Assembly: GCA_016282685.1 (NCBI GenBank)
Contig: JAEELM010000033.1
Span: 1 to 48,160, forward strand
Reading direction: 5' to 3'
Length of the DNA stretch: 48,160 nt
Source: Elusimicrobiaceae bacterium
GTDB lineage: Bacteria > Elusimicrobiota > Elusimicrobia > Elusimicrobiales > Elusimicrobiaceae
Positions 9,962 through 41,738 of this stretch are shown here, in pieces. Below the pieces are notes generated by a model. That model did no database searches, was not told the origin of the DNA, and was given only the letters and a program-made list of their open reading frames with translations. The translations under genes and the position numbers were made by a program. Position 1 is the first letter of the stretch. Every line of letters begins with the position of its first letter.

Positions 9962-11047
9962 CTACATTTGTAGCCATTTAAATTCTGCCACTACCAGCGC
10001 ACTGCAAAGCAGTACCGGCCCCCATCCGGCCAGAAGAGGATGTAACATTCCATTTCCACCAATAGAAGTACATACCGATATCAACCACCAAAACACAAAA
10101 GCGATTACAATGGCCATTAAAATGTTGAGTAATTTGCTTTTTCGCCGTGTGCTGATGGCAAAAGGCATTCCCAATAAACACATAAGTATCGTAACAAATG
10201 GGGCAGCCAATTTAGATTGGCGGACAGTTTCCGTAGGATAAGAGACAAGACCGCTACGTTTGTAAAAACGAATACGTTTGGTCAATTCGCGTATGCTAAG
10301 CAAATCATCTTCCGTTTTGCTGACGGACATTTGTTCCGGTTTTAATTTTACAGGGGAGGGAGCTTGATCAAAGTGTTTTTCGGTCGTATCCAACGGATCA
10401 ATGTAAAAACGTTCAATACCGTTGGAAAATAGCCACGATTGGGAGGGTTTGTCCCATATCATTTTTTCGGCTACAATTTGATGGGAAATATTCCAAGCAT
10501 CATTGTATGTGTCCAGCGCCACTTTACTCATAACTCCCTTAGATAAATCCACTTCTTTGGCAAACAACATTTGAGTGGGGGAGAGTTTAATTAATACGTC
10601 GTTTTCTGTATTGGGATTGAACGTCTCCACCGAGCGTTTGACACGGGTGTAATAAAGCTCGTCTGCTTTTAAATTGATAGACGGAATAATAAATTCTTGG
10701 GCAAGGAATGTAGCTAAAACTACAATCAATACGCAGGCTAAAATCGGATTGAAAAGTTGTTTCGGAGAAAAACCGCCTGCCACACAAGCTGTCCATTCTC
10801 CGTTGGAAATCATTTCCGAAATAACAAATATAGCTCCTAACAAGCAAGCCACCGGGATAATGGTAGCCAGCCAATTGGGTACGGTCAACGCACTGTAAGA
10901 CAACACATCCCATAAAGTGGTTACACCGTTGCTCATTTTTTTCATTTTTTCAAAAACGTCTCCCAACAGCACCAGTGTTGTAAAAATTCCCAGTGCAAAA
11001 AAGAACGGCCCCCAAAATTTACGGGCAATGTAACAGTACAAACGCAT
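9962..11047 (-). CDS. lptG: LptF/LptG family LPS-export permease (second copy, LptG-like)
   Basis: The 361-residue protein belongs to the YjgP/YjgQ family. It has three N-terminal transmembrane helices (about 12-34, 55-75 and 95-120), a periplasmic jellyroll-type middle region (about 125-260) and three C-terminal helices. With LptF it forms the membrane part of the LptB2FG ABC exporter, which pulls LPS from the inner membrane. I start it at the ATG at 11047, which overlaps the lptF stop as TAATG and has AGAGG upstream; an ATG eight codons earlier lacks a binding site. Naming F versus G is by gene order only. Confidence 0.85.
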   Translation of the reverse strand: MRLYCYIARKFWGPFFFALGIFTTLVLLGDVFEKMKKMSNGVTTLWDVLSYSALTVPNWLATIIPVACLLGAIFVISEMISNGEWTACVAGGFSPKQLFNPILACVLIVVLATFLAQEFIIPSINLKADELYYTRVKRSVETFNPNTENDVLIKLSPTQMLFAKEVDLSKGVMSKVALDTYNDAWNISHQIVAEKMIWDKPSQSWLFSNGIERFYIDPLDTTEKHFDQAPSPVKLKPEQMSVSKTEDDLLSIRELTKRIRFYKRSGLVSYPTETVRQSKLAAPFVTILMCLLGMPFAISTRRKSKLLNILMAIVIAFVFWWLISVCTSIGGNGMLHPLLAGWGPVLLCSALVVAEFKWLQM

Positions 11048-12141
11048 TAAATATTTAACCTCTTTTTCCACAAATACTTAGCAACGACTAGGCCGATTAT
11101 AATGGGTAACCAAGGGGCCCAATAAGCTAAAACGGCATAACGTTTGCCCAATGTAAGTCCGCAAGCCCCTATAGTGTAGAACGTTAAAATAATGATAACA
11201 CTAAATAACATTCCCCAACCCTTGTTGGTGCGTTTCCCTAACGAAAACCCAATCGGGCAGCTAATCAGTAACAATACAATGGGGGCGATAGCCAAAACAT
11301 TGCGCAAGCTGACTTCTGTTTTAAATTCATTTTGCGTACGCTGGGGCAACGGTGTTTTATAAATATAGCGAATCAAGCGCGGGGTTCCCATTTCGCTGGC
11401 ACGTTTTTCGCGCTGGTTTTCACGTGTTAAAGGGATATTCATGGTATATTCGTCAAAGTTGGCCGCAATAAAAGAGGAGGGATCTTTGGCGTCCAGCCGT
11501 TGCATTTGCCCTTCTTTCAAGTTGAGTCCGATAGCTGTTTTGGATAAAATTACTTTTCCGTAGGCGGCGTTTACTTTTGTGCTCAATGCGCCGGAATCAT
11601 CTTTTTTAATCAAGTGAATTTGTTTGGCTTGGTGATCGGAACCGTTGAGGTCTTCTACGTATAATTGCCACTCTCCCAAGTCCAAAAAAGTTTTGGGTTC
11701 CAGGTTTACCCGGGTAATTTTGCTGCGGGCTTCTTGACGTAAGTTGAGTACGCGCTTGAAACAATGGGGGGTTAACCAATTGTTGCACGCAAACAGTGCT
11801 ACAGATAGCAGGATTGCACAAACCAACAATGGTTTTACAATTGCTTTGAAAGAAAAACCGGCAGCCCGCAAAGCAATCAATTCGCCTTGCTCGCTCATGG
11901 TAGAAAGGGTAAATAAAATAGAAATTTGGAAGGCCATCGGGGCGCTGAGCCCAATAACATCAGGCAACATATTAAGCAACGTCATGCCGATCCAACCCCA
12001 ACTGGTGCCATAGCGCAAGGCCATACTTACTACGCGGATAAAATTATTCATAAAAATTACCAGCGTTAAAATTCCTAAAATTCCCAAAAAGAAAATGGCC
12101 CAGTTTTTGGCGATATATTTATTAAATATTCCAATGCGCAT
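11047..12141 (-). CDS. lptF: LptF/LptG family LPS-export permease (first copy, LptF-like)
   Basis: The 364-residue YjgP/YjgQ family protein has the same layout as its downstream neighbour. The cytoplasmic coupling segment SEQGELIALRAAGFSFKAI, between helices two and three, is typical of LptF/LptG, where it contacts the LptB ATPase. A periplasmic beta domain lies in the middle, with helices near residues 275-350. It is first of the two-gene unit. A TAAAAT hexamer eight bases before the ATG again suggests a leaderless transcript. LptB, LptA, LptC and LptD are not in the window; an LptE-like lipoprotein is at 44355. Confidence 0.87.
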   Translation of the reverse strand: MRIGIFNKYIAKNWAIFFLGILGILTLVIFMNNFIRVVSMALRYGTSWGWIGMTLLNMLPDVIGLSAPMAFQISILFTLSTMSEQGELIALRAAGFSFKAIVKPLLVCAILLSVALFACNNWLTPHCFKRVLNLRQEARSKITRVNLEPKTFLDLGEWQLYVEDLNGSDHQAKQIHLIKKDDSGALSTKVNAAYGKVILSKTAIGLNLKEGQMQRLDAKDPSSFIAANFDEYTMNIPLTRENQREKRASEMGTPRLIRYIYKTPLPQRTQNEFKTEVSLRNVLAIAPIVLLLISCPIGFSLGKRTNKGWGMLFSVIIILTFYTIGACGLTLGKRYAVLAYWAPWLPIIIGLVVAKYLWKKRLNI

Positions 12142-12249: not shown

Positions 12250-15200
12250 ATGAAAATAAGCCGCTTGTTGCTTGCTTGTGTATTGCTGATAGAATTTATC
12301 TACGCTCCTGTGGCCGCGCAGACGTTGCCTTACAGCTTGGTAGATAAAGACCAATACAGTATTTTTGAAGAAGAGCAAGCTGCCAAACGAGAGGAAGAAT
12401 TAGCTCTGCCGGAACCGCAAGATGATGCGCAGTTGTTGCGTTATTCCAATGAGTTTTGGCGTCAGGCGGTAACTTCTGTCGACGGTTCATACGAATTAGA
12501 CAAAGCCCCCGAGCCTATCCCGGATTTGACCCTTTTAAATCCTACGCTTTCCTTACCGCTATATGGTACCAGTATCGCCTTAACGGGCCGGTATGTGTTG
12601 GGGGCCAAATTGGCCGGCAAGCGTTTCAAAACAGATCCCAACAGCAACGTTACCAACCGCAATGCCCACAGCGTGCAAATGGATCAACAATTGCAATTGA
12701 AAATGCAAGGTAAAATTTTGGACCGTGTGTTCGTCGATATCGATTATGATGACAAACGGGAAGAAGAAAAGACGATTTCTGTGGCCTACCGCGGCAAACC
12801 CGGGGAATTGGTACAGCTGGCACAATTCGGCGATATTAATTTGTCTTTGCCGGGTACCGAATTTATTACCTATGACAAGCAGCTATTCGGTGCTAAGATG
12901 CATCTGCAACATAAAAATGCCAATTTGTACGTTATTGGTTCGCAAACGAAAGGTTCCAGCAAACAAAAACGTTTCGTGGGATCGAGCGTGTCGGAAATTG
13001 TAACGGTGGAGGACATTGCCTACAAGCGTCGTGTATATTATGATTTAACATTCGGCGGTAATGTTCACCCCGCTATTAAAAGCGACGGAACGATTGTCCC
13101 CTCTATTGATACGACGGCGAATGCTCATTGGAGTAGTGCTATTGGAGCTATTTCTCCCGGTACGGAAGAAATTTATTTGGATAGCAATACAACTTCTTCC
13201 GATTATGTGCCGGTATATAAGACAGCTACCGATTATTTGGGCGGGGGCGATTATGAGGCCAAGTGGCAGCTATTGACCCGTGGGGTAGATTACACTATTG
13301 ACTATGACAAGGGATACATTACATTTAAACGTTCTATTACGGCGGCCAGCGTGCTTGCCATAGATTATGTGGGCACCAACGGCACCCGTTTAAGTGATTT
13401 GGGCACCCCCAATACGATTAAATTTATTAAAACTGCCAACGATAAGCCCGTTACTTCCGAAATTACGGAAACGGCTAACAAATTAGAATTAAAAACATTT
13501 TATTCCATTGGTGCGCAAAAAATCACGCAGGACAACGGCAAAGGTAATTTTATCTTGCAACTACTGGATGCCAACGGGCAAGCCGTTGCCAATCCCTACT
13601 TTGTTTATCCCACGTATGTGAATGTTGATTTTGACAGCGGCGTTTTTGATTTGGCTTATCGGTTAGATGATCCGGGGGTTTATGCCGCTACACCTACATC
13701 TTCTCAAAACCAGACGTTCAAAATTCAATATGAAAGTACCGTTAAAACGTATTTTATTGAAGCGGGAATTGTGGTGCAATCTGAAATCGTGAAGTTAAAC
13801 GGCGTGACGTTGGCCCGCAATAATGATTACTACATTGATTATACTTCCGGTTTTATTACCTTCTACAAAGGGGAACAAATTACAGAAAACACCGTTATTG
13901 ATATTACGTACGATACAACGGTGGGAGCGGATACCAATAATTCCGTGATTGGGGGGCGTTTAGATTATCGGTTGTTTGAAAAAGTATTATTGGGAACTAC
14001 TTTGATTAAGGAGGGGGGAGAGAAACCTACTACTGTCCCACAGGTAGGGGCCTATTCCAAAGATATTTTAGTATACGGTGCAGATATCAATGGAAAAGAT
14101 ATTAAATTAGCTGCGCCCCTTTCTATGGATTTTTCTGCGGAAGCTGCCCACAGTGAGAGGAAGCAAAATTTGTTCGGCTATGCTATGGTGGACAGTATGA
14201 ATGACACCAACGAACAAGTAGCCGGCTCCCGTGTTTTTAGAGATTGGCGCATTGCCGCTAACCCCAACGGGAAACCCAACTTTTTAGATGCCGTGCATTG
14301 GGATACGGAAGAATTACCTGCATTGGAAATCAATCCCCATTCAATTGTCAGTTATAATGAAAAGCAACAAGTGTTGGTGCTGGATTATGATTTTACGCAG
14401 GGGCAAGCTTATACGGATGAAGTTTCTATCGTTTATCCCATTAGCCAGAGCGGGGTAGATCTATCGGAAAAAACCTCCTTTGAATTAACCTTACTGGGAG
14501 AAGAAGGCGGCCCGCAGGTTAATTTCACTTTTGGTAACATCAATGAAGATTCGGACAATTCCGGCGGAATGGAAACCGCTTGCGGTAGCGGTGTGCCCAA
14601 AACGGAAGACGTAAATTGCCGCAACTCTTTGGCCCCCAGCGAAGATATCGGCTGGCTTTACACCAACCCGGACGGAACACAGGAACGTTACAATCCGTTT
14701 GCTCACAATACGTTTAACTATGAATCTCAACCCAACGGTCGTATTGATACACAGGATCTAAACGGAAACGGAAAATTTGATGAAGAAAAAATACCCACGG
14801 ATGGGAATTTCGGTTTTGGCGGAACGGCTATTGAAGGGATGAGTGATAACCGGGCCACCAATACCACCTGGCAAACTTATTCTATGCCGGTTACGTTTAC
14901 AGACAAGCAGGAATGGACAGCTGTGCGCCACTTGCGTATTACGTTAAAACAAGGCAGTAAATTAAAAGGGCGCATCAAAATTGCCAATGTGGCCTTGTCG
15001 GGCACTTCGTGGAATTCTACGGTAGAAGATCCGGCTGTTTTTTCCATCTCCGGCATTAACAACGTAGATAACCGTGATTATGAACCGATTTTCAGCGATA
15101 CCACCGGTGATGGTCAACGCGTATTTAATTACCTGTACGGATCGGTGCAAAATTTTAAAGACATTACCGGTTCTACCAACGCACTGGATCAATCTCTTAG

Positions 15201-17589
15201 CTTAAAATTTGATACTTCTTCCGCCTCATTTGCTTCGGTTTGTACGGACGGAGAATGTTATGCCAACCGAAATTTTAATTCCATGGATTTCAGCCAACAT
15301 CGCCAGTTGCGTTTCTTGTTACACGGTGCCGTGCAGTTGGGGAGTAACACTCCGCTTAATCAAGACGGAACGGAATTTTTCTTAAAAATTGGTACTCAAA
15401 CCAATTACGACAAAGTAATTGTTCCAACGAATTTTACCGGTTGGCGTTTAATTGAATTACAAATGGTGGATACCAATGGAGACGGTATCGCCGATACATT
15501 ACAGAACGTATCGGACGCATCTTATGATGTACGGGTGGAATCTGTTCGTGCTGTAAACGGGTTGTTGAATTTTAGAGAAATTAGTTTGGTTTTGGCCGGG
15601 GTACAACAACAAGAAGGTACTTCCGGTAGTGCCGGGGAAGTGTGGCTCAATGTCATTCACTTGGCTCAAGCTATCCAACTCACAGGTGAAGCTTACAAAG
15701 GACAAGTAGATTTGAAATTGGATGAGTGGGGAAGTGCCGGCGTACGTTATATTCATAAAGACAGCAATTTTGAAACACCTCTTTCGGTTTCCAAACAACA
15801 GGAAACTACGGAAGAAGATTATTATTTGAAGATTAACCGTATCAAAGAATTCCCCATGACAGCGAACTTCAACCGTTCAACGGTTATTACCCCGCTGGTG
15901 ACGGATACTACCGATTATAACACGGTGAGCCTTTTGGATAAAGGAGAAGTAAAACGGGAACGGGCCGTGGTGCGTGGAGAATTTGTAAAAGAAAAATATC
16001 CTACTATTGGTTTGGAATATACGCAAAACAAAACCGATTATCAGTTACTCAAACGCCAGGATGATTCACGGGCCTATGGGGTAACACTCAATCATACGGC
16101 AGGAAGTTTTAAAAACATTGTGGCCGGCTATCATTACATTGATTCGGATGTGCAATATGATACGGCCCGCCACTATGAGAGCGACACTTACTACGATACA
16201 CAGGAAAATACGCAGAAACTGAACATGAAGGCCACTTTCCAACCCAGCAGTTCCTTTCAGTTTACGCCCAGTTATAATTTGACCAAGAGTAAAGAGGAGC
16301 GTACGCATTTTACGATAGGTTCCCGTGACGATTTGCACTATCCCAAAGCCATGACGCAATCTACCGGGTTTAACTCAACTTGGAAGATCTATAAATGGTT
16401 GGCTCCTTCGGTTAGTTACAATATCAGCACGGTGGAAAACAACAATTTAACCGAAAAACAAAGTGTGGACGGTTCCCATTTGTTTGCGGTAGGGGAAGTA
16501 AAAACGGTCAACCGTAATGCAGATGGGGGCGTGTCGCTTACTTTGAACGGAAATGAAATTTTACCCAAGAGTAAATTATTCAATACACTGGTGATGTCGG
16601 CCAGTTACCGTATTCAAGATGCGGATTCCTGGTTGGATGTGGATAGCGGATTTGATTCGCGCAAAGCCTTGTGGCTGCGTGATTCGTTGGGGAATGTGGG
16701 CACCTTCGGCTATCGTCGAAATTTGACGTTGCGCGATACTATTTCCAGTACCCAACGGTGGAATCCGCTTTCACAGTACGATCTAAAGGGAGCGGTTGCG
16801 CCGTTAAAAACATTGTCCATTATTAATAACTTTTCCAAAACGGTACAAAACAACGAACAAACCGGTACGGTTTACGATTCCACCAGCCGTACGTTGCCTG
16901 ACCTAACGGTTTCTATTTCCGATTTGGAAAAAATGTTTTATGCCGGCCGTTGGCTGAGTGCTTCTAATTTGAAATTACGTTATAGCCAAGTGGAGCAAAC
17001 CAATATCGGAACAGACGACCGTTCTTCTACTCAATATGGGGCAGATGTGCGCTTCATGTTATTTAATTACTTTGATACAGTTTTCAATTATACGCATCAA
17101 ACGGTAGATCGAAATGATTTGCGCGCCGGAGCCAGTTTGGAACGGTTAAAGAAAGACGATCTTTCTGCCCAAACTTCCTTTTATATTAAGTCGCTGCGTG
17201 TTACTCCCAAACTTTTGTACGGTGCCACTGAAAAGAGCGTGGCGTTGGGCCGCGCCAGCGAAGACAGCACTTTTTGGACACCCAGTCTCAACTTGCGGTG
17301 GGATTTTAATATCCCGCGCGGATTTAAGCTGCCCTTTATCCATAAAGTGTATAACACAACTAACCGCGTGATTTGGAATACAACTTTTTCTTATACAAAT
17401 AAAAAATCACCGATTGAAGTAAAAGACAACTATCAATTATTTGATTTTGTGTCTTCTTTGGATTATGAGTTTTCGCAAAATTTACGCTTTACGTTATCGG
17501 GCGGATTTACGCTGATGGACCATGCCTATGTAGAGTCCGAAGATTATACCGCTTACAATGTGGCCGCCAATGTTACGGTTCAATTCTAA
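12250..17589 (+). CDS. Giant outer-membrane beta-barrel protein, SprA/Sov-like
   Basis: The 1779-residue protein has a signal peptide (1-23, ending PVAAQ) and ends in the aromatic TVQF expected of BAM-inserted barrels. Features recall SprA/Sov, the type IX secretion translocon. FGDINLSLPGTEF at 193-205 and nearby KQLFGAK resemble the SprA segment that precedes its QSLFGVK motif. Two copies of a DYxIDYxxGxITF motif occur (near 347 and 526), matching the DYTIDYxxGRV motifs of SprA. A mid-protein region reads NGRIDTQDLNGNG and later NTTWQTYSMPVT, as in SprA strand-rich domains. It is shorter than typical SprA (about 2400). From about residue 1190 on it is alternating beta sequence fit for a large barrel. 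No other type IX genes are in the window, so translocase function is inferred. comF follows, overlapping its end. Confidence 0.72.
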   Translation: MKISRLLLACVLLIEFIYAPVAAQTLPYSLVDKDQYSIFEEEQAAKREEELALPEPQDDAQLLRYSNEFWRQAVTSVDGSYELDKAPEPIPDLTLLNPTLSLPLYGTSIALTGRYVLGAKLAGKRFKTDPNSNVTNRNAHSVQMDQQLQLKMQGKILDRVFVDIDYDDKREEEKTISVAYRGKPGELVQLAQFGDINLSLPGTEFITYDKQLFGAKMHLQHKNANLYVIGSQTKGSSKQKRFVGSSVSEIVTVEDIAYKRRVYYDLTFGGNVHPAIKSDGTIVPSIDTTANAHWSSAIGAISPGTEEIYLDSNTTSSDYVPVYKTATDYLGGGDYEAKWQLLTRGVDYTIDYDKGYITFKRSITAASVLAIDYVGTNGTRLSDLGTPNTIKFIKTANDKPVTSEITETANKLELKTFYSIGAQKITQDNGKGNFILQLLDANGQAVANPYFVYPTYVNVDFDSGVFDLAYRLDDPGVYAATPTSSQNQTFKIQYESTVKTYFIEAGIVVQSEIVKLNGVTLARNNDYYIDYTSGFITFYKGEQITENTVIDITYDTTVGADTNNSVIGGRLDYRLFEKVLLGTTLIKEGGEKPTTVPQVGAYSKDILVYGADINGKDIKLAAPLSMDFSAEAAHSERKQNLFGYAMVDSMNDTNEQVAGSRVFRDWRIAANPNGKPNFLDAVHWDTEELPALEINPHSIVSYNEKQQVLVLDYDFTQGQAYTDEVSIVYPISQSGVDLSEKTSFELTLLGEEGGPQVNFTFGNINEDSDNSGGMETACGSGVPKTEDVNCRNSLAPSEDIGWLYTNPDGTQERYNPFAHNTFNYESQPNGRIDTQDLNGNGKFDEEKIPTDGNFGFGGTAIEGMSDNRATNTTWQTYSMPVTFTDKQEWTAVRHLRITLKQGSKLKGRIKIANVALSGTSWNSTVEDPAVFSISGINNVDNRDYEPIFSDTTGDGQRVFNYLYGSVQNFKDITGSTNALDQSLSLKFDTSSASFASVCTDGECYANRNFNSMDFSQHRQLRFLLHGAVQLGSNTPLNQDGTEFFLKIGTQTNYDKVIVPTNFTGWRLIELQMVDTNGDGIADTLQNVSDASYDVRVESVRAVNGLLNFREISLVLAGVQQQEGTSGSAGEVWLNVIHLAQAIQLTGEAYKGQVDLKLDEWGSAGVRYIHKDSNFETPLSVSKQQETTEEDYYLKINRIKEFPMTANFNRSTVITPLVTDTTDYNTVSLLDKGEVKRERAVVRGEFVKEKYPTIGLEYTQNKTDYQLLKRQDDSRAYGVTLNHTAGSFKNIVAGYHYIDSDVQYDTARHYESDTYYDTQENTQKLNMKATFQPSSSFQFTPSYNLTKSKEERTHFTIGSRDDLHYPKAMTQSTGFNSTWKIYKWLAPSVSYNISTVENNNLTEKQSVDGSHLFAVGEVKTVNRNADGGVSLTLNGNEILPKSKLFNTLVMSASYRIQDADSWLDVDSGFDSRKALWLRDSLGNVGTFGYRRNLTLRDTISSTQRWNPLSQYDLKGAVAPLKTLSIINNFSKTVQNNEQTGTVYDSTSRTLPDLTVSISDLEKMFYAGRWLSASNLKLRYSQVEQTNIGTDDRSSTQYGADVRFMLFNYFDTVFNYTHQTVDRNDLRAGASLERLKKDDLSAQTSFYIKSLRVTPKLLYGATEKSVALGRASEDSTFWTPSLNLRWDFNIPRGFKLPFIHKVYNTTNRVIWNTTFSYTNKKSPIEVKDNYQLFDFVSSLDYEFSQNLRFTLSGGFTLMDHAYVESEDYTAYNVAANVTVQF

Positions 17590-18325
17590 TTTATTGTCTT
17601 TTTTGCGCAAAGCCGGGAAATGTTTTTTACACGTTTGGTTTCCGCGGGTTTGCTTTGCTTGTCAAACAGATTTGCCATATGATGAATCGCAACCGCTTTG
17701 TGCCGCCTGTAGGCAACAGCTCACGCTGCCGGGGCCGTTGATTTGCCAACGGTGTGGCGTGGAATTAAAATCGGGCGGTGCACATTGTTTTTCTTGCCGA
17801 GGAAGCAAAGGTGAACAATTTAAGTGCAAATGTATTCGCTCCGCTTTTGTGTTTAACAATTCTTCGCGTGCGTTGGTACATGCCCTTAAATACCAAGGGG
17901 CTGATTACGTGGCTTCATTTATGGGACAAGAAATGGCCCGTTGTTATGCTCGCTTGCCGGAGTTGTCATCTGCCCAAGTGGTAGTGCCGGTGCCGTTGTA
18001 CCCCAAACGCCGACGCAAACGGGGATATAATCAAAGTGAATTGCTGGCTCGTGCCTTTGCCGCCCAAACGGGACTTGTTTTAGATACCCAATGTTTAATT
18101 CGCACGCGTGACACTTGCAGCCAAACTCAATTGGGCCGCCGGGAACGGTTGGAAAATATGAACGGTGCTTTTGTTTGTGTAACACCGCAAACAATCAACA
18201 AAAAAATTGTTTTATTGATAGATGATGTGGCCACTACAGGAGCTACCCTAGAGGGGTGTGCCCGGGCATTACGCCAAGCGGGAGCCAAACGTGTGTTGGC
18301 CTATACCTTTGCACGGGAAAATTAA
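17558..18325 (+). CDS. comF: ComF family phosphoribosyltransferase-like protein
   Basis: The 255-residue protein has an N-terminal zinc-finger region with Cys pairs (CFAC, CAAC, CQRC, CFSC at about 32-78) and a C-terminal phosphoribosyltransferase fold. The latter shows VVVPVPLYPKRRRKRGYNQSE, typical of ComF, and the PRPP loop LLIDDVATTGATL. In naturally transformable bacteria ComF helps single-stranded DNA enter the cytoplasm; many non-competent bacteria also carry it. The start lies within the end of the SprA-like gene (32-nt overlap); ATG at 17570 is an equally possible start. It meets radC tail to tail with a 4-nt overlap. Confidence 0.87.
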   Translation: MWPPMLRFNSNLLSFLRKAGKCFLHVWFPRVCFACQTDLPYDESQPLCAACRQQLTLPGPLICQRCGVELKSGGAHCFSCRGSKGEQFKCKCIRSAFVFNNSSRALVHALKYQGADYVASFMGQEMARCYARLPELSSAQVVVPVPLYPKRRRKRGYNQSELLARAFAAQTGLVLDTQCLIRTRDTCSQTQLGRRERLENMNGAFVCVTPQTINKKIVLLIDDVATTGATLEGCARALRQAGAKRVLAYTFAREN

Positions 18326-37634: not shown

Positions 37635-39203
37635 TTATTCGTTATCGGCGCTGGCAACTCCGGAGAAGCGGTAAGAGGGTACTTGAATTTCTTCTTCTTC
37701 CACATCAGGAGTGTCCGGCATTTTGGCGGCTCTGTCCGGGTCCAAAAGTGCTACCGTTTCTTTCTTCTTGGTATGGTCAACGGCGGCTTTACCTTTTTTG
37801 TCACGAAGATCTGTTTTGATACCGCGAACAGCTAACAATTCTTCTACAATTGCGGTCTTGTTTTTGCCGTGTATCTTTTCAACAGCTAAAATCAAGGCTG
37901 TTTTGCCGTCTTTATCTTGAGCATTGATGTTTAATAAGTCCCTACTGTTTTCAGGATCATGTAGACTCCTGTAAGACAATAAGTCTTTCATAATATCTAA
38001 TTTGCCATGTGCGGCAGCATGTATCAATGCAGTGCGGCCCCGATCGTCCTGCAGGCTAAGATCGGCATTCTTGCCCAGTAAGCTTGATACCGCAGCTTTC
38101 TTACCACGCTCGGCGGCAAACATCAAGGCTGTTTTGCCTTTTTTGGCCATTTCTTTCTTTTTATCGTCACCGCTGTATTTGAGCTTGTCCATTATTGGGT
38201 TTTCAATTTGGACGTTTACATCAATGCCAGGGGCAGCCAACAATGCCAACATGGCATCTTCTTTATTTTCTTCCGCTGCGAACAGCAAGGCGGTACGTCC
38301 GTCGCCGCTAATTGCGTTCACCTGGGCACCTGCGTTCACTAAAGGTACAATCGCATCTTTTTTGCCGAATTTGCTGGCGGCCATTAGTGAGGTCTGTTGT
38401 TTTATAGTGCCGTCTCTGCGGTCTATGTTCACTCCCGCTCTCAATAATTCTTTAACAACTCTATCGCGGCCTTCAGCGGACGCTACAAACAAGGGGAATT
38501 GACCGAACTTATCATAGGCATTTAAATCTGCCGTGGCCGGTATTAACTTGATTACCACATCTTGATGGCCGGCTTTCAACGCCAGCATCAATGCCGTTTG
38601 ATCGTATTTATCTTTAATGTTGGCATTAGCTGCCGGGGCCAAGATATGATCAGTTGTCGGCTCTAACAAAGCGTCAACGGCTTTCTTTTTGTTCTTTTTA
38701 GCGGCAATCATCAACGCGGTCATCTGTTCGTTGTCTTTGGCGAGCTTATTGTCTTTTTTAACCGAAAAGGTGGCCATTGCGTTTACGTTAAGGTCTTTTC
38801 TAGCCCGCAGTTTTTTGATGACTTTAGGATTGTCATGTTCCGCTGCGTACATAAGGGCTGTCTTGCCGCGCTCATCCGGCCGGTTGACATCAACACCCGC
38901 TTCGCTAACTAAAAAGCCTACGGCATCGGCCTTGCCGTGCAAGGCGGCTTCCATTAAAGGCGTTTTCTGGTCATGCTCTGTGGAGCACTCCATGTTGTAG
39001 CCTTGCTTGAACAAGACGACTAATTTGGCTCTGTCACCTTTTTTCGCTGCTTTGATTACCTCTTCGCAGCGTTTTTGGTCGGCCTCGATTGCGCCTTTAA
39101 CAGCGTCGAATGCATTGGTTCTTTCACTTTCTTTAGCCAATGCAGGGGTCACAATACACAGTGCAAGGATAGATGCACTGAAAACTTTCAGTAGAGTTTT
39201 CAT
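37635..39203 (-). CDS. Exported ankyrin-repeat protein
   Basis: The 522-residue protein has a signal peptide (1-23, ending TPALA) and then about ten ankyrin repeats. Typical lines are KTPLMEAALHGKADAVGFLV, KTALMYAAEHDNPKVIKKL and RTALIHAAAHGKLDIMKDLL, from about residue 75 to 480. The tail is acidic (VEEEEIQVPSYRF). Ankyrin repeats bind proteins; an exported one could act in the periplasm, at the surface or outside the cell, in contact with a host. No catalytic domain is seen. It has a strong classical promoter and a GAGGAGG ribosome binding site, suggesting good expression. Confidence 0.88.
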   Translation of the reverse strand: MKTLLKVFSASILALCIVTPALAKESERTNAFDAVKGAIEADQKRCEEVIKAAKKGDRAKLVVLFKQGYNMECSTEHDQKTPLMEAALHGKADAVGFLVSEAGVDVNRPDERGKTALMYAAEHDNPKVIKKLRARKDLNVNAMATFSVKKDNKLAKDNEQMTALMIAAKKNKKKAVDALLEPTTDHILAPAANANIKDKYDQTALMLALKAGHQDVVIKLIPATADLNAYDKFGQFPLFVASAEGRDRVVKELLRAGVNIDRRDGTIKQQTSLMAASKFGKKDAIVPLVNAGAQVNAISGDGRTALLFAAEENKEDAMLALLAAPGIDVNVQIENPIMDKLKYSGDDKKKEMAKKGKTALMFAAERGKKAAVSSLLGKNADLSLQDDRGRTALIHAAAHGKLDIMKDLLSYRSLHDPENSRDLLNINAQDKDGKTALILAVEKIHGKNKTAIVEELLAVRGIKTDLRDKKGKAAVDHTKKKETVALLDPDRAAKMPDTPDVEEEEIQVPSYRFSGVASADNE

Positions 39204-39408: not shown

Positions 39409-40296
39409 TTAACCATGTGGGTGAAACTTCTTATGTTTGTTTTTTAAATCCGAAACATCCAGATGAGTGTAGATTTGGGTGGTGGTCAGGTTGGCATGGC
39501 CCAACATTTCCTGCAGACTTCTTAAATCGGCCCCGCCTTGCAAAAGGTGGCTGGCAAACGTGTGACGGAATAAATGCGGGTGTAACGGCTGGGAGATGTT
39601 GGCTTTGCGGCCTAAATCGGCCAAGTCTTTCCAAACGCTTACACGGCTTAACTTGCGGCCGTTTTTATTCAAAAACAGCTCCGAACCGACGGTAGATTTG
39701 GCGGCAAATTTTACTTCCCGCGCGCGCAAATAATTTTCAATACGTTGGCAAGCCTCGCGGTGGATGGGCACAAAACGTTGTTTGCCGCCTTTGCCAAAAG
39801 CCAATACCCAGCCTTCCTTTATATTTACATTTTCCAAACGCAGGTTAATCAGTTCGCTCACGCGTAGCCCTGCCGCATATAACAAATCTACTATTGTAAC
39901 GGTGCGGATTTCTTCAAACGTTTCCGCCGGGTACGAAAGCAAACGGTTCATTTCTTCCCGGGTCAGCTGGTGGGGAATGGTTTGCGGCAGTTTGGGAGAT
40001 TTCAAAAAACGGGTAGGGTCTTGATTAATTTTTTGTTCAATTAGTAGGAATTTATAAAAACATTTTACCGCTTCGGTTTTGCGGAACACGCTGGAAGTTT
40101 GTAAATGCTCCACCACGCGTAATTGATAATTGTATTGGTCCAAAAAAGCAGGGTCTGCCAAGAGGGGGTCTTTATTATTGGCCTCGCAATATTCCAAAAA
40201 ACTTTCCACATCCGCCCCGTAGGCAGCTACCGTATTGGGGGAAAGTTGCCGTTCAAAGGAAAGATGATTTTTAAAGTCTTCCAGTAATGCTTTCAT
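39409..40296 (-). CDS. Tyrosine recombinase XerC/XerD-like
   Basis: The 295-residue recombinase has an N-terminal SAM-like core-binding domain (1-100) and the catalytic domain. Its catalytic set is complete: Arg145 (AAGLRVSEL), Lys169 (GKGGKQR), His241 and Arg244 (HLFRHTFASHLL), His267 (LGHANL) and Tyr276 (IYTHL). It resolves chromosome dimers at dif. Whether it corresponds to XerC, XerD or a lone XerH-like enzyme cannot be told. It is not next to phage or transposon genes. Its ATG overlaps the preceding glycosyltransferase stop as ATGA. Confidence 0.92.
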   Translation of the reverse strand: MKALLEDFKNHLSFERQLSPNTVAAYGADVESFLEYCEANNKDPLLADPAFLDQYNYQLRVVEHLQTSSVFRKTEAVKCFYKFLLIEQKINQDPTRFLKSPKLPQTIPHQLTREEMNRLLSYPAETFEEIRTVTIVDLLYAAGLRVSELINLRLENVNIKEGWVLAFGKGGKQRFVPIHREACQRIENYLRAREVKFAAKSTVGSELFLNKNGRKLSRVSVWKDLADLGRKANISQPLHPHLFRHTFASHLLQGGADLRSLQEMLGHANLTTTQIYTHLDVSDLKNKHKKFHPHG

Positions 40297-41738
40297 TTTT
40301 TATAACGCGGGTCCACCACTACACAGGAATGTGTGAAAGTGGCTACTTTCTCGGGAATATGGAAATCATACTGCACGGAAGTATTTACCAAACGCACAAA
40401 CCCGCACAAAGGGATAATCAATGGCACTTCTTGTTTCATCAAAGGGGCCGTTTGCTGGGTTAAAGGAATAATTTCCAAGGAATTGTCCGGCGGTACAAAA
40501 AAGCGCATCAATGGCTCTACAGAGGCTTGTGGATAAGAAAAGGGCTCTAAAAAGAAAAGTACTTTATCTGCCTTTAAGCCATGCTGGACATAGTTAAATG
40601 CATCGATAAGCCCGGAGTATTCATGCAAGCGCGGCAGAAAATTCCGGTAATAGTAAGTGGAAAAAGAGAAAAGGAGTAACGGCAACAATACAATTGTAAT
40701 TTTCCAACGGCGATACAGGTGCGCCCATAACGAAGTAAACAAAATAAAACAACAGGGTAACATAACCAAAAAATACCGATCCATAAACAGGTTGTAGCGT
40801 TTGGAAACGGCTACCAGTACCAGTATCAATACGACGATTTGGAAAACCGTTAGCGGAATTTCGGGCAGTTTTTTAAGGAGGGGTTTTTCGTTAAATGCCA
40901 CTGATACGCCCCCTATTACCAGCAGCAGTAACAAACCCAATAATATTCTTTCCTGCCCAAAGTTAAATTCCAAAATTTGCCAGGAAGAAAGCATCTTGTT
41001 GGTTTCGTACCACCAACCGGTTTCAAAATGATTCATGGAAAGATACGTGTTCCATATCCACGGTACCCACAAAAAGAAAGCCAGGGCCGTACTCCAAAAA
41101 ATCAGGCGTGCGTCGCGTTTGTAAAAACAGGCACAGATAAACAAAAACAACGCTGTAATAAAGAATAGACCGGATACAAAAAAATGCGTATAAGCCCCTA
41201 TAAACCCCGTGATAAAAAAGGCGGCCCATATTTTGGGAGAAACGGGTTGGCCATCATTGAAAGCATCTAAAATCCGTACGGCCAACAGGGTAAATACGGT
41301 AGTAAACAAAACACCCATGGAATAAGCGCGTAAAATGCAACTGTAATTGGTAAGGCCGGAGGAACAAATCAGCATACAACAAAGTGCAAATTTTTGTAAT
41401 TTTCCCCAGCGTTTAGGCGCCAACCACCAGGCCACCGGAAACGTAATAAGAGAAAATAACAACGGCAGCCCGCGCATCCAGGTGGTTGTAAAAGGCACGA
41501 TATGGGCCCACGTACGCAGCACCAAATTAAATAGCGGCAAATTGACATCCTGCCGCAGAATATCATTCCAAACGGTGGAAAAAGAAAGGGAAGGATGGGC
41601 CGTTACCCAGGAGTAAACTTCGTCGTAGATATACGTTTCTTGTAAACCGTAAAAGCGGGAGATAATCATCAGCAGCGCCAGTATGCCCGATATTCCCACG
41701 CTGACCCCGAGAATGATATTTTGTACGTGTTTTTTCAT
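40293..41738 (-). CDS. Polytopic GT-C-type glycosyltransferase-like membrane protein
   Basis: The 481-residue protein has about 10-12 transmembrane helices. An early acidic motif (YDEVYSW around residue 39, in the first periplasmic loop) is followed by DVNLPLFNLVL. This matches the PMT/ArnT (GT39/GT83-like) family, which moves sugars from polyprenyl phosphate donors to lipids or proteins. The C-terminal part (about 370-481) is a soluble outside domain. The sugar and the acceptor are not known; lipid A, protein O-glycosylation or another surface glycan are options. It is followed by xerC in the same transcript. Confidence 0.7.
   Translation of the reverse strand: MKKHVQNIILGVSVGISGILALLMIISRFYGLQETYIYDEVYSWVTAHPSLSFSTVWNDILRQDVNLPLFNLVLRTWAHIVPFTTTWMRGLPLLFSLITFPVAWWLAPKRWGKLQKFALCCMLICSSGLTNYSCILRAYSMGVLFTTVFTLLAVRILDAFNDGQPVSPKIWAAFFITGFIGAYTHFFVSGLFFITALFLFICACFYKRDARLIFWSTALAFFLWVPWIWNTYLSMNHFETGWWYETNKMLSSWQILEFNFGQERILLGLLLLLVIGGVSVAFNEKPLLKKLPEIPLTVFQIVVLILVLVAVSKRYNLFMDRYFLVMLPCCFILFTSLWAHLYRRWKITIVLLPLLLFSFSTYYYRNFLPRLHEYSGLIDAFNYVQHGLKADKVLFFLEPFSYPQASVEPLMRFFVPPDNSLEIIPLTQQTAPLMKQEVPLIIPLCGFVRLVNTSVQYDFHIPEKVATFTHSCVVVDPRYKK

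Follow-up and report, generated by a model that had tools for sequence, protein, structure and literature searches.

The window analysed here, a 48,160-nucleotide stretch of contig JAEELM010000033.1 from an Elusimicrobiaceae bacterium, carries at 12250-17589 on the forward strand an uninterrupted open reading frame (ORF) of 1779 residues whose product starts with a signal-peptide-like segment and has ...VTVQF at its C-terminus. Here, we identify this protein as a homologue of SprA/Sov, the outer-membrane translocon of the type IX secretion system (T9SS), and suggest that it exports cargo carrying T9SS-like sorting domains in the phylum Elusimicrobiota. The gene and its conserved blocks are as follows.

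12250..17589, + strand: SprA/Sov-type outer-membrane translocon homologue, 1779 residues (TIGR04189, 5.2e-33; profile match in the PDB to SprA only, 1e-39; AlphaFold and Foldseek in both halves; 162/199 Elusimicrobiota genomes)
12838..12897, + strand: N-terminal conserved block DINLSLPGTEF..Y.KQLFGAK, aligning with SprA residues in 6h3j
13288..13326, + strand: first DYxIDYxxGxITF block, G.DY..DY..G...F being kept in the family alignment
13825..13863, + strand: second DYxIDYxxGxITF block, aligning with DYSVDYQLGRVQIL of SprA in the family-profile alignment
14734..14895, + strand: NGRID..DLNGNG ... W...P block, the top-scoring stretch against SprA in the family-profile alignment (profile 803-1157)

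Several lines of evidence support the identification. First, the motifs from which a preliminary description, made from the sequence alone, had proposed a likeness to SprA are all present: NLSLPGTEF at residues 197-205, QLFGAK at 211-216, the two DYxIDYxxGxITF copies as DYTIDYDKGYITF at 347-359 and DYYIDYTSGFITF at 526-538, the segment NGRIDTQDLNGNG at 829-841 and TTWQTYSMPVT at 872-882. Their cores are conserved in 35 Elusimicrobiota relatives. Second, the NCBIfam SprA/Sov model TIGR04189 aligns with the protein over four collinear stretches, at E = 5.2e-33 and 113.5 bits. Third, a family profile (A1) of 35 Elusimicrobiota homologues with 27-83% identity to the window protein gave two distinct matches at E ≤ 10 among 177,635 PDB sequences, and both are SprA (6h3i/6h3j and the 8gl* series, ~1e-39); the family profile was required for this result, the window protein as a single sequence giving no PDB match. 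Fourth, when AlphaFold models of residues 1-1200 (pLDDT 79, pTM 0.58) and 590-1779 (pLDDT 87, pTM 0.51) were compared with the PDB by Foldseek, the top four matches were all SprA in both cases (E 5e-46, TM 0.54 and E 1e-36, TM 0.61, respectively), and the next-best matches were ~30 orders weaker. Identity in the structural alignment is low (11-14%); because the C-terminal half matches SprA by Foldseek, it keeps the SprA architecture although sequence similarity has been lost there. The protein would form one very large beta-barrel that has domains in the periplasm and inside the barrel. Altogether, the SprA fold and profile matches in collinear order place the protein in the SprA/Sov superfamily in the wider sense, and the likeness that the preliminary description had read from motifs is borne out by profiles and fold alike.

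The gene is present in 162/199 Elusimicrobiota genomes, including 132 of the 143 good ones, nearly always as one ORF of ~1750-1950 residues; small genomes of family f10 mostly lack it. Within the genome collection we found 63 homologous loci, mostly from rumen and gut genomes, with 54-83% identity except for one partial copy at 37% (the source assembly itself comprises 1.42 Mb in 49 contigs). In a tree of 31 SprA proteins, the window's own class is split from the rest with an SH-aLRT of 99 and families cluster; the tree follows taxonomy, as expected for vertical descent.

The other components recognised by profile are a carrier and cargo. The PorV/PorQ-family model NF033709 matches in 40/41 relatives, and genomes of the sister family f2 hold 9-36 copies each. 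Many of the f2 frames are 450-720 residues long, compared with 326 model positions, and may include extra domains or unusual starts. The T9SS type A sorting domain TIGR04183, a C-terminal domain (CTD), was found in 95 of 150 phylum genomes, in 93 of them over the cut-off and in up to >36 copies, and comparison of the two phylum scans places SprA in 90 of these 95. For the other five (G084, G108, G142, G160 and G163), assembly gaps, divergence or loss may account for the missing SprA match. Carrier and cargo genes are also adjacent. In four f2 genomes, 43/55 CTD genes have a same-strand PorV-family gene no more than 545 bp downstream (median ~115), with 0.19 expected, and in an independent sample from other families PorV lies downstream in 19/40 CTD loci and overlaps in one more (L218). 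Three CTD-bearing open frames encode proteins that would be extremely large for a SprA-type route, namely 13,077 residues (G026:C6:189665), 16,223 residues (G031:C54:24892) and 14,446 residues (G034:C35:268907), and a PorV-family gene comes after each of the latter two.

In the window's own genome, one PorV-family gene is clear (G000:C22:16418-17392, - strand; E 4e-22, 79 bits). Directly upstream, 39 bp apart, lies a cargo ORF of 1655 residues (C22:17477-22444). It combines a signal peptide and FlgD_ig domains with a weakly recognised C-terminal domain that matches CHU_C, a type IX signal, at 4e-7 and the PorZ CTD at 6e-5 (1.6e-7 in a relative). Across the genus, this PorV is present in 59/61 genomes and in 34/34 good ones, it follows the same cargo family in 16/16 loci with upstream sequence, and the C-terminus of the cargo CTD reads GR.HCQKVVKI..P almost without variation, HCQKVVK being invariant. 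The genus CTD also has two invariant cysteines (RCkWD and HCQKVV; L203:6477-11444:-), which may form a disulfide. A second PorV-family match, at C15:37460-38500, was rejected as a PorV: its sequence pattern suggests a barrel of FadL/OmpP1 type, and its neighbourhood has no CTD gene. The recognised repertoire of this genome has shrunk to one pair. The pair opens a Tad-pilus locus (G000:C22:7619-17392; L118) in an order conserved in the genus, with genes for TadE, RcpC/CpaB, a secretin, a TadA-type ATPase and two T2SSF proteins downstream; Tad pilus and cargo may be functionally linked.

The sortase and the motor gave a different picture. Peptidase_C25, the fold of the PorU sortase, was found in 0/41 relatives, and 149/150 phylum genomes were empty. 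The sole positive genome (G046) has two strong matches (C83:8486-8974 and C55:15182-15640), so the search works in this phylum; these may be PorU or cargo. GldM was found in 0/150 genomes, in a search that had no positive control genome and that did not extend to GldK, GldN, SprE/PorW, PorP, PorZ, SkpA or Plug. GldL, likewise with no positive control genome, gave weak matches only, all under the cut-off. We rejected them: they lie mostly outside the model's N-terminal part, and the same model matches Bacillus (Gram-positives), Thermotoga and archaea. By profile search, PorU and the GldL/GldM motor thus went undetected, and export may have no motor, an unrelated motor, or one that has diverged beyond the reach of these profiles.

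These results revise the setting in which the protein had first been placed. A host outside Bacteroidota had been considered, and its host is indeed a member of Elusimicrobiota. The statement that no other type IX genes lie nearby holds for the window genes scanned but fails for the genome, where a PorV-family carrier and CTD cargo lie on another contig. The roles then considered (lone exporter, porin-like surface protein or different secretion route) are only partly borne out: the predicted fold rules out a lone porin, and because genome and phylum carry PorV-family/CTD gene pairs, SprA is not alone. The sortase and a detectable motor are the parts that are missing. The partner search proposed at that stage thus detected the PorV family and CTDs and left PorU, GldM and GldL undetected.

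Computation establishes SprA homology and fold, carriers and CTD cargo in the same genomes, adjacent cargo-carrier genes and missing profiles. On this basis, we consider it likely that the gene encodes a SprA-type translocon that exports cargo with type IX-like Ig-fold CTDs, the cargo probably being anchored on its own carrier. Several observations weigh against this proposal. The window protein falls short of TIGR04189 equivalog status (113.5 bits, with a curated cut-off of 200), the own-genome PorV scores 79 bits where NF033709 demands 90, and TIGR04183 at E ≤ 0.001 finds no match in the own-genus cargo among the genus genomes listed. In sampled loci of some SprA-bearing families (f10, f17, f18 and f19, and gut f1 outside the window's genus), CTD genes lack an adjacent PorV, with one f10 exception, and FlgD_ig-like folds are not restricted to type IX cargo. 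Finally, removal of the motor in the T9SS trapped cargo on the translocon (Lauber 2024; PMC10994853), and some energy source is therefore expected.

Part of this evidence could also fit an ordinary, complete T9SS in which sortase and motor have diverged past the profiles, or in which the sortase comes from another peptidase family. SprA and the genus PorV already lie below curated cut-offs, so further components could escape detection, and the search for the motor covered GldM and GldL, with no control genome known to have either family. However, the C25 search works in G046 yet finds nothing in the remaining 149 genomes, and the PorV, CTD and SprA profiles match widely, in contrast to GldM with no match in 150. 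The cargo-carrier pairing, moreover, lessens the need for a shared attachment complex. We regard a hidden complete system as unlikely, although it is the strongest of the alternatives.

The neighbourhood of the gene bears on a second alternative and contains the following features.

9962..11071, - strand: second LptF/LptG-type permease (Pfam 3.9e-68)
11047..12141, - strand: LptF/LptG-type lipopolysaccharide-export permease, divergent neighbour (Pfam 1.6e-69)
17558..18325, + strand: ComF-type phosphoribosyltransferase with double zinc ribbon (Pfam DZR_2 and Pribosyltran)

The LptF/LptG genes are divergent and upstream of the SprA gene in 69/84 loci. The ComF-type gene, which in the window shares its first 32 bp with the SprA gene, overlaps or follows its 3' end on the same strand in 73/84 loci. 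This gene order is old and conserved. The ComF-type gene is a syntenic neighbour, and any role in export would be hypothetical. The SprA-like protein might then serve another outer-membrane task, e.g., in lipid, lipopolysaccharide or barrel assembly, and export no CTD cargo. The conserved LptF/LptG neighbours favour this idea, as does the retention of SprA in the window's own genus with only one PorV-cargo pair found. It is opposed by the SprA fold in both halves, by the near-constant presence of SprA in CTD-bearing genomes (90/95) and by the cargo-PorV pairs that the genus retains (PorV in 34/34 good genomes), and we find it improbable. An unrelated giant porin or adhesin, for which the low structural identity and the empty single-sequence search might speak, is hardly credible, since TIGR04189, a family profile matching SprA only at 1e-39 in collinear stretches and both structure models with their wide Foldseek margin rule out a chance resemblance.

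The other window genes scanned are housekeeping or ordinary, with no further T9SS gene among them, and scans for promoters and terminators around the SprA gene gave nothing better than shuffled sequence. The window also encodes a 522-residue ankyrin-repeat protein (37635-39203, - strand), in a rumen-type bacterium, and a 481-residue ORF with no Pfam match at 1e-5 (40293-41738, - strand).

Returning to the SprA-type translocon with its own cargo, we suggest that cargo would reach the periplasm via Sec, that its CTD would bind loops of the dedicated PorV-family carrier while this is docked at SprA, and that the cargo-carrier complex would exit sideways into the outer membrane. As no PorU was found, the CTD would remain uncleaved and the cargo would stay anchored on the carrier. 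If the motor is truly absent, ejection would have to be driven otherwise, perhaps by folding of the cargo outside or by an ExbBD/TolQR-type complex. In Bacteroidota, PorV is shared among type A cargo. Within the SprA pore there, the CTD attaches to loops of the carrier, and carrier and cargo exit laterally as a complex (PMC10994853). Type B cargo has a dedicated SprF/PorP carrier, whose gene comes directly after that of the cargo, and remains bound to it (PMC12635249, PMC9143113, PMC12618676). The scheme proposed here would follow this type B logic with type A-like CTDs and PorV-type carriers. More tentatively, and as a possibility rather than an expectation, Elusimicrobiota may hold a stripped-down and perhaps older form of type 9 export, made of SprA and one dedicated PorV-type carrier per cargo with neither sortase nor GldLM, in which cargo, including surface proteins of 13,000-16,000 residues, would be displayed on the carrier and from which the Bacteroidota form would have been elaborated by adding a motor and a recycling carrier.

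T9SS genes have been stated to be absent outside the Fibrobacteres-Chlorobi-Bacteroidetes (FCB) phyla (PMC11285876, 2024), TXSScan places the T9SS in Bacteroidetes only (PMC4793230), and Poribacteria have CTDs without known secretion genes (PMC3909097). Our literature search combining T9SS terms with Elusimicrobia, which had most subscription journals outside its reach, returned no report. A whole phylum outside the FCB group has SprA, PorV and sorting-domain cargo; its SprA always lies below the annotation threshold (0/199 genomes pass the 200 bits of TIGR04189) and is therefore missed by automatic annotation. If the motor is really missing, the system tests which type 9 parts are essential and whether carrier-cargo ejection always needs GldLM. 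The arrangement also hints at what to search for in Poribacteria, and it provides Elusimicrobia of gut and environment with a likely route for surface display.

Compared with Bacteroidota SprA/Sov (PDB 6h3i, 6h3j, 8gl6 and 8gl8), the Elusimicrobiota protein shows sequence blocks in collinear order and shares the overall fold along its whole length, and it is likewise encoded by a single gene in genomes with PorV-family and CTD proteins. It differs in its length (1750-1950 versus ~2400 residues), in scoring below the curated SprA cut-off, in its host phylum and in the undetected PorU, GldL and GldM. Because three T9SS features (translocon, carrier and CTD) are present and two of those tested (sortase and motor) are lacking, we do not class it as a canonical T9SS, although it would work like one. 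With the type A arrangement of CTD, PorV and PorU it shares the TIGR04183 CTD model and a PorV-family carrier, whereas sister-family genomes have many cargo-paired PorV-family genes (9-36) and no PorU-type C25 peptidase. With the type B CTD and SprF/PorP of Flavobacterium johnsoniae (PMC12618676, PMC9143113) it shares the carrier gene directly downstream of the cargo gene, which implies that each cargo has its own carrier and is anchored there; in contrast to type B, its CTD matches type A TIGR04183 (diverged in the window's genus) and its carrier is of the PorV/PorQ and not the PorP/SprF family. The Elusimicrobiota arrangement combines type A-like CTDs and PorV-type carriers with type B genetics, a combination that blurs the line between type A and type B and raises the possibility that dedicated carriers are the ancestral state.
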